Source of the DNA: Geodermatophilus bullaregiensis
GTDB lineage: Bacteria; Actinomycetota; Actinomycetes; Mycobacteriales; Geodermatophilaceae
Length of the DNA stretch: 64,000 nucleotides
Direction of reading: 5' to 3'
Assembly (NCBI RefSeq): GCF_016907675.1
Contig: NZ_JAFBCJ010000001.1
Span: forward strand, 2,232,001-2,296,000
Shown here in pieces: positions 14,120 through 52,413 of this stretch. The position numbers were made by a program, and so were the translations under genes. Positions within the stretch are counted from its first letter, which is position 1. Every line of letters begins with the position of its first letter. The notes under the pieces are model-generated. The model was not told the origin of the DNA and made no database searches. It worked only from the letters and a program-made list of their open reading frames with translations.

Positions 14120-15397
14120 GTGACCCGCACGGCCGACGTCCCCAGCACCGCACCGGCCGCCGGCGACCGGCGGCGCGGCCTGCTGCTGGTGGCGGTCGCC
14201 ATCGTGCTCACCGCCACCAACCTGCGGACGGCGGTCAGCTCGGTGGGCCCGGTGCTCCAGGAGCTCGAGGCCGGCCTCGGCGTCTCCAGCGCCGCGGCCG
14301 GCGTGGTGACGACGATGCCGGTCGTCTGCTTCGCCGCCATCGGGTTCGCCGGCCCGCCGCTGGCCGCCCGCTTCCGCGACGCGCACGTGCTGGCCGGCGC
14401 GCTGCTCACCATGGCCGCCGGGCTGGTGCTGCGGGCGGTGGTCGACTCCTTCGCCGTCTTCCTCGCCGGCACGGCGCTGGCCATGGTCGGCGGGGCCCTG
14501 GGCAACGTGCTGCTGCCCGGCCTGGTCAAGCGCTGGTTCCCGGAGCGGACGGGGCTGCTCGTGGGCGCCTACAGCGCCGCGATGGCCATCGGTGGCGCCG
14601 TCGCCGCGACGGCCACCGCACCGATCGCGGCGGCCGTGGGCCCGGGCGGCTGGCGCTGGGGGCTCGGGATCTGGGCGGCGCTGGCCCTGGCGGCGGCGCT
14701 GCCCTGGTTCCTGACGCCGCGGCAGCCGGGCGCCTCCCGCGGCGAGCACCGCGCGGTCCCGATGGCGCCGCTGCGCCGCAGCCCGACCGCGCTCGTCCTC
14801 GCCGCGTTCTTCGGCCTGCAGGCCACCCAGGCCTACGTCGTCATGGGCTGGTCGGCGCAGTACCTGCGCGACGCCGGCCTGAGCGCGGCGACGGCGGGGC
14901 TGCTGCTGGGCATCAACTCGATCGTCGTCATCCCGGTCAACGCCGTCGCCCCGGCGCTCACCGTGCGGCAGCGGCTGCAGCGCCCGCTGCTGCTGGGGTT
15001 CATGGCCTGCTACGTCGTCGGCTGGAGCGGGCTGTGGATGGCCCCGCGGACGGTGCCGTGGCTGTGGATGTCGGTGCTCGCCGTCGGCATGGGGACCTTC
15101 AGCATGGTGCTCACACTGATCGGCCTGCGCGCCCGGACGCCGGAGACGACGGCGGCGCTGTCGACGGTCACCCAGGGCTGGGGCTACGTGCTGGCCGCCA
15201 CCGGCCCACTGCTGGTGGGCGTGCTGCGCGACGTCACCGGCGGCTACACCGGGATGTTCGTGCTGGTCGCGGTGACCACCGTGGGGCTGACCGTCACCGG
15301 GTGGCTGGCCACCCGGGAGCGCTACGTGGACGACGAGCTGCCCGGCTGGTCGCCGGCGGCGGTCACCCCTGGGGGCGCCGCGTCTCCGCGCGGGTGA
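14120..15397 (+). CDS. MFS transporter, CynX/NimT family
   Basis: This is a major facilitator permease of about 425 aa with 12 predicted membrane segments, resembling the cyanate/2-nitroimidazole transporter subgroup. Features are [19 protein letters not shown] after the first helix, characteristic of CynX-type proteins, and [20 protein letters not shown] around the fourth and fifth helices. GTG at 14120 places the N-terminus about 20 residues before the first helix; a TTG at 14066 is also in frame but would add a Cys/His-rich stretch with no function. It overlaps the 3' end of dcd on the opposite strand by 35 bp. The substrate cannot be read from the sequence. Confidence 0.8.
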
Positions 15398-17003
15398 AGT
15401 TGCGGAACGACCGCGACGGCGTCGGGCCGCGCTGGTCCTGGTAGCGGGAGCCGTACAGCGCCGAGCCGTACGGGTGCTCGGCGGCCGAGGTGAGCCGGAA
15501 CAGGCACAGCTGGCCGATCTTCATCCCCGGCCACAGCGTGATCGGCAGGTTGGCCACGTTGGACAGCTCCAGCGTGATGTGCCCGGAGAAGCCGGGGTCG
15601 ACGAAGCCCGCCGTCGAGTGGGTGAGCAGTCCGAGCCGCCCCAACGAGGAGTTGTGCGTGGGGACGTAGGAGTCCCCCACGAGGAACATGCCACTCGGCG
15701 CCGAGACCTGGATGCAGCGGACCGGGACGGTGGGGACGGGACGGACGGCGCGCACACTGCGGTGCTGGTGGCCGCGGCCGTCGGTCTTCAGCCGGGCCAG
15801 CTTGCGGGCGAGCCGGAACACCGGGATCCGCGGCGTGAACTCCACCTGGAAGGCGGGGCCGCAGTCGATGCCGTTCAGCATCGCCCGCTTCTTGCGGCGG
15901 GTCGGCCGCAGACCGAGGCTGGCCGCGAGCTCGTGTACGGCCCAGGAGACGTCCTCGCGCACGTTGACGAACTCGCAGCGGCCCTGGTCGTCGACGTACC
16001 CGTCCGAGTCCATCAGGCCCTGCAGCAGCGCGAGCCGCTGGTGGACGTCCGCGGTCAGGTAGGCGGCCGGCACCCTCTTGTCACCCAGCAGGCCGAGGGC
16101 GCGGAGGTGGCTGCTCAGCGAGCCGTTGCTGCCGAACCGGCCGCCCTGGCCGCGCCGGTGCGCGTGGCCGTCACCCCGGACGGTCCCGCCGAGTCGGTAC
16201 GCCGACGGCGCGGTCGCCGGCCACACCCGGTAGCCGCCGGCCTCGAAGTGGGCGAGCACCTCCTCGTCACCACGGCCGACGGTGATCTCCCCCTTGGAGC
16301 TCGTGCCGTCACCGAGCCAGTAGCCGAGGACGTAGGGGTCGACGGGCAGGTCGGCCGTCGGGTACTGGGCCGGCCCCGCCAGTGCGATCCGGTGGTTGCG
16401 CTCGTCGCCGCACAGGAGGGTGCGGGCCACCTCGTCGGTGGTGCGTGCCGCGGCTCGCCGCGGCCGACCGGGGCGCCGCTCGTTCTTCGTCGTGGTCACC
16501 CACAGGTGCGCGGCATCGGCGGTGAAGACGGAACCGTCGCTGAGCTCGACCTCACGGCACGGGCGCCCGAGCATCACCTCGGTCGCGGCGACGACGCGGC
16601 AGGGGAGGCCGTTCCCGTCGAAGACCTCGTCCCCCACGGCCAGCTCGCCCATCGTGGTCCAGCCGGTGGGCGTCGGCACCGACGTCTCGATCGCCAGCGC
16701 CTTCCCCTCCAACCGCGCGGCGAGGTCGTCGGGGATCCGGACCACCTCGAGCGTGGAGCCGAGCACGAACTCGCCGGGGTGCAGCACGAACGGCTCGTCG
16801 CCCTGGGTCTCGACCGCGGTGGTGAGGTCGTCCTGCTGCTGGGCGGGGTCGATGTGGGTGTACCGGGCGTTGTTGAACACGCGGAAGTAGCGGTCGAGGC
16901 GGACGTCGATGCTCGAGGGCTGCACCAGCCCCGCGTCGTGCGGCTCGATGCCGAGACGCCCCTCGGCGATCGCGGCGCGGATGTCGCGGTCGGACAGCAG
17001 CAT
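15363..17003 (-). CDS. dcd: dCTP deaminase (Dcd) precursor containing an intein
   Basis: Dcd deaminates dCTP toward dUMP synthesis; some actinobacterial forms are bifunctional and release dUMP directly. The precursor is 546 aa: N-extein residues 1-101 ([20 protein letters not shown] to [13 protein letters not shown]), a 350-aa intein (residues 102-451), and C-extein residues 452-546 ([20 protein letters not shown] to the end). The spliced protein would be 196 aa, a normal Dcd length. The insertion splits the active-site motif EGK/SSLGR, which is where inteins tend to sit. ATG at 17003 has a -10-like TAGACT seven bases upstream and no clear ribosome site, suggesting a leaderless mRNA. The 3' end overlaps the MFS gene tail on the other strand. 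Confidence 0.93.
15651..16700 (-). other. Class 3-type intein with LAGLIDADG endonuclease inside dcd
   Basis: This 350-aa in-frame insertion starts with Ala ([14 protein letters not shown], block A) and ends VPTHN before extein Ser. The first residue is neither Cys nor Ser, ruling out the standard class 1 mechanism. A class 3 Trp-Cys-Thr set is present: W67 in block B (TADAAHLW, His65 two before), C329 in block F (VRCIQV...[10 protein letters not shown]) and T348 in block G (THN). Two homing-endonuclease motifs are intact, [10 protein letters not shown] (125-134) and [10 protein letters not shown] (225-234), each with its acidic residue. Splicing looks feasible, and the endonuclease may still be active. 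Confidence 0.92.
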
Positions 17004-17152: not shown

Positions 17153-19930
<2,778 letters not shown>

Positions 19931-51202: not shown

Positions 51203-52413
51203 ACGCGCACCCCGACCGGGACGGTGGCCGTCAGCACGAAGCGGTCGCCGTCCGGGCCCGCCACCAGCCGCCCGCCGGTGGCGGTCAGGCGCTCGGCCAG
51301 GCCGGTGAGGCCGCTGCCCCAGCCCTCCGCGGCCGGGGCGACGCCGTCGTTGACCACCCGCAGCTCCGCCGTGCCGCCGGTCGCGGACAGCTCCACCGTG
51401 CACGAGGTCGCGCGGCTGTGCCGCAGCACGTTGGTCACCGACTCGCGCACCACCCAGCCCAGCGCCGTCTGCACCGGCCCGGGCAGGGTCACGGCCGCGT
51501 CCTCGCCCCGGACGGTCACCTCCACGCCGGCGGCGCGCAGCACCGACCGCGCCCCGGCCAGCTCGCCGGGGAGGTCGCTGCCCCGGTAGCCGCGGACGAC
51601 GTCGCGCACCTCCCGCAGCGACTCCTCGGCGACCCGGCTGATGTCGACCAGCTCCTCGACCGCGCCGTCCCTCCCCCGGCGCACCAGCTCGGCGGCCAGC
51701 TGGCTCTTCACCGCGATCACCGACAGGTTGCGGCCCATGACGTCGTGCAGGTCGCGGGCGAAGCGCAGCCGTTCCTCGGCGACGGCGAGCTGGGCCTGCA
51801 CGCCGCGGGTGCGCTCCATCTCCAGGACGACGTCGAGGATCCAGACGCTGAAGCGGAACGCCGCCACGAAGGCGGCGAGGGCGACCCCGATGGAGGCGGC
51901 CACCACCACGGCTGCGACCGGGGGGCTGCCGTCGATCAGCGCGACGACGCCGGCGAGGACGCCGGCGGCAGCCGCCCCTGCCATCAGCGGCCGGGTGGGC
52001 ACCGTCACCGACAGCGCCAGGAGGACCGCCGCGCCCAGCAGGGCCACCACCCAGGGTGCCGACGGCGCCGGGCCCTCCGCCGTCGCCATCAGGGCGGCGG
52101 CGACGGTGACCAGCCCGGCGACGACCGCGACCGCCAGCGACGGCCGGTCGGGGCGGGTGCCGCGGTCGTGGTCGCGGTCCTGGAAGCCCCGCCGGGTGAG
52201 GAGGAGGCAGGCCACCGTCGTGACCAGTGCGCCGGCGGCCAGCAGCAGCGCCGCCCACGGGGAGGTCGGGGCCCAGTCGGGCACCACCGCGAACAGCAGG
52301 AGCGCCGGCAGGAACACCAGCGTCGTGTAGTACGAGGAGCGGGTGTAGAGGTCGATGCGCTGCGGGTCGGTGCGGCTGCTCCACCAGCGCGCGACGGTCG
52401 GCACGGCCCCCAT
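51199..52413 (-). CDS. DesK-like membrane sensor histidine kinase
   Basis: This 404-aa kinase has an N-terminal membrane domain of about five helices (YYTTLVFLPALLLFAVVPDW and others), then a HisKA_3 with phospho-His in FARDLHDVMGRNLSVIAVKS, and an HATPase with ESVTNVLRHSRATSCTVEL and a degenerate G box (GSGLTGLAERL). It is like the DesK family that senses membrane or ligand state. ATG at 52413 is preferred by the long hydrophobic N-terminus. An ABC-2 permease gene ends 46 bp upstream, so the four genes form one operon. Confidence 0.9.
   Translation of the reverse strand: MGAVPTVARWWSSRTDPQRIDLYTRSSYYTTLVFLPALLLFAVVPDWAPTSPWAALLLAAGALVTTVACLLLTRRGFQDRDHDRGTRPDRPSLAVAVVAGLVTVAAALMATAEGPAPSAPWVVALLGAAVLLALSVTVPTRPLMAGAAAAGVLAGVVALIDGSPPVAAVVVAASIGVALAAFVAAFRFSVWILDVVLEMERTRGVQAQLAVAEERLRFARDLHDVMGRNLSVIAVKSQLAAELVRRGRDGAVEELVDISRVAEESLREVRDVVRGYRGSDLPGELAGARSVLRAAGVEVTVRGEDAAVTLPGPVQTALGWVVRESVTNVLRHSRATSCTVELSATGGTAELRVVNDGVAPAAEGWGSGLTGLAERLTATGGRLVAGPDGDRFVLTATVPVGVRV

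Follow-up and report, generated by a model that had tools for sequence, protein, structure and literature searches.

What is the in-frame insert that interrupts the dCTP deaminase gene (dcd) of Geodermatophilus bullaregiensis, and how did it come to lie in this gene? The locus is found on the minus strand of the window, as we call the whole 64,000-nucleotide stretch that was analysed (contig NZ_JAFBCJ010000001.1, positions 2,232,001 to 2,296,000). We consider it highly probable that the insert, which lies in a chromosomal dCTP deaminase (Dcd), before the first Ser of its conserved EGK-SSLGR motif (here and below the last hyphen before Ser, Thr or Cys marks an insertion point), is an intact class 3 intein with a LAGLIDADG endonuclease, that it is probably competent to splice, and that it spreads by homing and descends from inteins of Walker A-type sites.

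The anatomy of the locus can be read directly (Table 1). Coordinates and translation agree with the original prediction of a 350-residue insert that has Ala first and THN last before Ser, and the flanks of 101 and 95 residues sum to Dcd, in keeping with the 196 residues predicted for the spliced protein. The exteins match TIGR02274, the dCTP deaminase equivalog, in two pieces (192.2 bits against a cut-off of 92.8), and their best match among solved structures is the Dcd of Mycobacterium tuberculosis (2qxx, E 6.8e-90); the alignment with it runs the length of both parts and reaches residue 539 of 546. The computed alignment places the first Ser of the C-extein (15648-15650), which we take to be catalytic in Dcd, at residue 102 of this enzyme; no literature on Ser111 of dCTP deaminase was found. 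Judged by this best match, the spliced enzyme may have bifunctional, dUMP-forming Dcd:Dut activity. Among 116 loci with both exteins, 19 have the insert, and in the 97 that are free of it the gap is exactly 0; these are loci and not genomes, the 19 representing nine genomes and the 97 including repeats of single genomes. The alignment of Dcd from related genomes, proposed beforehand as a check, thus found the exteins to be continuous where the insert is absent.

Class 3 inteins are defined by Trp at B12, Cys at F4 and Thr at G5 (PMC3196547, PMC5050341). In all nine dcd inteins residue 1 is Ala, in place of Ser, Thr or Cys, and W67, C329 and T348 are kept in all nine as well as in 78 of 78 aligned sequences. 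The insert ends in N350, is followed by Ser at +1, and has a predicted HINT fold with the catalytic His, H65, which is invariant. Its structure model (predicted local distance difference test, pLDDT, 94.5) superposes on the class 3 DnaB intein 6rix at 1.8 A over 130 residues and matches PI-SceI over its length, and the best solved matches to its sequence are again class 3 DnaB inteins, 6rix and 6bs8. Motifs, predicted fold and nearest solved relatives agree on the class 3 assignment that had been made from the three residues, and the insert is probably an intact, splicing-competent intein of this class. By analogy, Cys329, aided by His65, Thr348 and Trp67, would attack the Lys101-Ala bond; the N-extein would then be transferred to Ser+1, and cyclisation of Asn350 would release the mature Dcd.

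A dead intein, in a gene that yields no Dcd, is scarcely credible. Decay of at least one function does occur in the group, since in the genus relative G057 both endonuclease acids are gone (D131G, D233G). Its splicing residues are kept, as they are in nine of nine dcd inteins, and both extein parts of the present gene align with the M. tuberculosis enzyme almost to their end. In all 15 pairs of inteins from the family, nonsynonymous divergence (dN, 0.04-0.18) is below synonymous divergence (dS, 0.17-0.98).

The insert scores above the cut-offs of both PF14528 and PF05204, and the two complete LAGLIDADG motifs that had been predicted are present with both catalytic acids, D131 and D233. Such an endonuclease would cut empty dcd alleles, and repair would copy the element in. 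A recognisable dcd N-extein is found in 100 of 112 genomes of the family Geodermatophilaceae, a related intein of some kind in 51, and the dcd type (76% or more) in six, namely the present genome, G042, G048, G057 and G062 from the genus (5 of its 26 genomes) and G012 from another genus. In a sample of 394 genomes from the class, at least four carry the dcd type (the present genome, G138, G197 and G230), a lower bound given that five candidates per genome were scored. Together these are nine distinct genomes, with an identical site and the class 3 residues kept. The intein of G230 has 298 residues, a stretch of about 50 residues being absent from the endonuclease region, and retains its splicing residues. 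No count here draws on the degenerate codon pattern by which the empty site was sought in 397 genomes of the order, as this pattern covers one Ser codon family only. The family genome G033 has two dcd N-extein matches, C182 and C39, whose identities to the query are 88% and 71%.

When the Dcd exteins of 55 genomes of the family are arranged in a tree, the six carriers need 6 changes, against a mean of 5.8 for shuffled labels. The inteins of these carriers form one clade, although their hosts are scattered on the extein tree. Horizontal spread would give such a pattern and so would many losses, and a tree of only 567 bases cannot tell the two apart. Extein and intein synonymous divergence gave no indication of very recent transfer, save between G048 and G062 (intein dS 0.17, extein 0.26). 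The intein is not compositionally foreign, since its guanine plus cytosine content is 73.6% and that of the exteins 71.2%. The suggestion that it may still be mobile gains support from its scattered presence and the exact empty sites. Within its own genome the dcd insert is the sole intein matched at E 0.001, and DnaB is uninterrupted in its DnaB_C domain; by contrast, G042, G048, G057, G062 and G012 each contain one more related intein match outside dcd.

Dcd is not a P-loop enzyme. Its insertion point, EGK-SSLG, resembles that of the DnaB inteins, GVGK-STLG, and the same context recurs among related inteins. Of the 223 loci that hold related inteins, 201 had junctions that could be parsed, and 159 of these, dcd included, read GK-S/T; the loci were picked by similarity and hence are not independent. 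Among 131 unique junctions outside dcd, 97 read GK-S/T, 49 of them within a strict [AG]xxxxGK, and the 97 are probably a lower bound because some of the other junctions are parsing errors. Dcd has 27 Ser or Thr positions and a single GK-S/T, which is the one used by the insert, and of the 1189 Ser or Thr residues encoded by 22 frames of the window only 1 is preceded by GK. A preference of inteins for P-loops is on record: about 70% are found in ATP-binding proteins, and a "classic" site has Lys before it and Thr after it (PMC5050341). We infer that the lineage entered Dcd through a look-alike of its usual Walker A site: most likely, a Walker A-type (GK-S/T) class 3 intein founded the dcd clade by entering the sole GK-S of Dcd, and would afterwards have spread and decayed within the actinobacteria.

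Two intein trees, whose members were found by similarity to the dcd intein and which have no class 1 outgroup, bear on the donor. The nine dcd inteins form one clade in both. Their nearest neighbours are the viral loci L176 and L197 in the first tree (support 94) and a six-row viral group in the second (L172, L173, L174, L192, L268 and L270; support 86/88). The viral hosts tested near the clade are terminase large subunits in seven of seven cases (L172, L173, L174, L176, L192, L197 and L268), and the annotated phage and plasmid hosts comprise three terminases and one DnaB-like protein; elsewhere, the host is DnaB at L005 and an AAA_10 ATPase at L016. A dcd with this intein was found neither among the 40 listed of 767 and the 60 listed of 440 phage records nor among the top 80 loci in either of two IMG/VR scans; one of the 767 records, outside the 40 listed, covers 80% or more of the precursor as a whole. 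The idea that the intein came from a phage nucleotide-metabolism gene finds no backing among these matches, and the evidence points instead to an intein lineage living at Walker A sites. Some related viral inteins depart from the GK rule, namely a Gx(G/A)E-(S/T)R group (L284, L294, L300 and L313) and a DWK-T or DLK-T group (L293, L316 and L329).

The P-loop intein of DnaB, common in the same genera, could also have been the source. Both inteins sit at GK-SxLG, and most DnaB-like hits are 50-56% identical to the dcd intein over about the first 170 residues. The labelled DnaB inteins (16 and 14 rows in the two trees) are split from the nine dcd inteins with full support, and with both trees disfavouring it a DnaB donor in these genera is improbable. 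Two DnaB genes showed further features. That of Geodermatophilus obscurus (L005:2299-6207) seemingly has two inteins, a class 3 intein in the P-loop and a PF14890 (Intein_splicing) match at residues 829-1244. In the genus relative G051 (L337 and L338), DnaB_C is split at position 200 by a stretch of about 1.3 kb within an open frame, which suggests an intein at a site other than the P-loop.

Several observations weigh against entry through a Walker A look-alike. Which inteins are sister to the dcd clade depended on the sampling of the two trees, and 34 of the 131 unique junctions are not GK-S/T. At the DNA level, the dcd and dnaB sites of the present genome share 9 of 18 bases, five further dnaB sites agree with the dcd site at 10-13 of 18, and the phage sites of L176 and L197, compared by eye, have little likeness to the dcd site beyond the GK codons; this low similarity weakens the case for homing onto look-alike DNA. 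A preference of inteins for conserved motifs could alone explain EGK-SS. It is quite possible, if somewhat short of probable, that the GK-S/T context reflects retention, loss being costly in active-site motifs, or a splicing preference, and that an unspecific event brought the intein into dcd. EGKSS is conserved in Dcd, in alignments and in the 97 empty loci, and Ser, Thr or Cys at +1 is chemically required for splicing (PMC3196547); the poor DNA likeness and the exceptional junctions, some of which come from misparsing, fit this explanation as well. Against it stands the choice of the one Dcd Ser or Thr that follows GK, a context as rare as the window count indicates. The -2 Gly is not known to have a role in splicing, which also counts against this explanation.

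The original prediction further held that splicing could gate the supply of dUMP. This is possible, for a partial effect at most, since the genome also encodes a separate dUTPase (dut) and loss of Dcd activity is tolerated elsewhere. Dcd is dispensable in mycobacteria: M. smegmatis with inactive Dcd:Dut grows normally in liquid culture, with altered pyrimidine pools, and a double mutant adding inactive Dut was not obtained (PMC5519681). By analogy with this tolerance, and given the dut gene, a failure of splicing would probably alter the dCTP:dTTP ratio and not kill the cell. A regulatory switch, in which Cys329 would pair with Cys48 under oxidative stress, pause Dcd maturation and shift dCTP:dTTP, is unlikely. 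Its precedent is the M. smegmatis intein DnaBi1, in which hydrogen peroxide stops splicing and a Cys48-Cys118 disulfide is formed (PMC6195587). The dcd intein aligns with DnaBi1 without gaps, and Cys48 and Cys329 are kept in all nine dcd inteins. Cys48 is also present in 74 of 78 aligned sequences, and a residue that these class 3 inteins have in common says nothing special about Dcd by being kept there; the carriers are rare in the family, and related species manage without the intein. We offer only tentatively, and with some doubt, the combined picture in which a Walker A lineage escaped into a non-ATPase through Dcd's only GK-S, homed across actinobacterial families, and through Cys48-Cys329 made the deoxynucleoside triphosphate balance oxidation-sensitive.

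Table 1. Features of the interrupted dcd gene, in window coordinates.
Feature	Position	Strand	Basis
dcd gene with intein, 546-residue precursor and stop	15363..17003	-	open frame, profile and structure-sequence matches
N-extein, residues 1-101, end LEGK	16701..17003	-	extein alignment
Class 3 intein (probable), 350 residues, precursor residues 102-451	15651..16700	-	motifs, empty-site loci, predicted fold
C-extein, precursor residues 452-546, 95 residues and stop, start SSLGR	15363..15650	-	extein alignment
Cys48	16557..16559	-	aligned without gaps with M. smegmatis DnaBi1, whose Cys48 is a redox-disulfide partner
Block B H65-L66-W67 (catalytic His; Trp of the Trp-Cys-Thr (WCT) triplet)	16500..16508	-	motif and conservation
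LAGLIDADG motif 1, VLGYWLGDG, acid D131, intein residues 124-132	16305..16331	-	
LAGLIDADG motif 2, 10 residues, acid D233, intein residues 225-234	15999..16028	-	
Block F Cys329, expected initiating nucleophile	15714..15716	-	motif and conservation
Block G T348-H349-N350	15651..15659	-	motif and conservation

At its 3' end dcd shares 35 bases (15363-15397) with the end of an MFS transporter gene that runs towards it on the plus strand (14198-15397). The divergent neighbour of dcd (17156-19930) encodes a subtilase (PF00082) that has an IPT/TIG domain and a long repetitive stretch rich in Gly, Ser and Thr. Farther away, an ARAGORN tRNA call at 51895-51992 with an unreadable two-base anticodon is probably false.

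Contrary to the initial impression that dCTP deaminase had no record as a characterised intein host, it is already a published one, in ORF069 of cyanophage vB_AphaS-CL131, whose intein was excised after expression in E. coli (PMC6293099). The record sequence reads GKSTYAR-CFTGDT...FVKN-CGII. The paper places the insert at residues 133-483; by our reading it starts at Cys132, in agreement with the host motif and with an intein of class 1. The CL131 element thus shares the host enzyme with the dcd intein, but lies in a phage gene, at a site (GKSTYAR-C) five residues downstream, and has Cys first, a class 1 assignment by sequence reading and an HNH nuclease, where the dcd intein has Ala first, class 3 residues and LAGLIDADG motifs. 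Its authors cite earlier bacterial cases from Proteobacteria and Chloroflexi (Novikova 2016, MacGregor 2013; PMC6293099). No class 3 Dcd intein was found in the literature searched, which did not take in those two works, and no Geodermatophilaceae inteins were found there. The element is of a known kind, and the new host and insertion site for class 3 inteins are real and well supported. Class 3 inteins thereby gain a host and site in a small housekeeping enzyme, and within a single family the same allele occurs empty, intact and in decay. The pattern of Walker A sites and its non-ATPase look-alike make the arrival of inteins in non-homologous genes directly testable, with one endonuclease and two kinds of site.

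Among known systems, PI-SceI, the yeast VMA intein, is matched in predicted fold and differs both in class, being class 1, and in its eukaryotic ATPase host. The class 3 DnaB-b (P-loop) inteins M. chimaera DnaB1 (6rix) and M. smegmatis DnaBi1 (6bs8) have in common with the dcd intein the WCT triplet, Ala1, the THN end, Cys48 and the HINT fold. Even the numbering coincides, His65 in DnaB1 and Trp67 in the DnaB-b inteins, and DnaBi1 likewise lies before Ser, at its P-loop. The solved DnaB-b constructs comprise 139-146 residues, and DnaBi1, a mini-intein, lacks an endonuclease, whereas the dcd intein has LAGLIDADG motifs and Dcd as its host. The class 3 inteins at the Walker A site of the terminase large subunit are the nearest in the trees and share with the dcd intein both endonuclease motifs and the GK-S/T site; they differ in residing in a phage packaging ATPase, and the best viral identity is 47% among the best 80 loci per scan.
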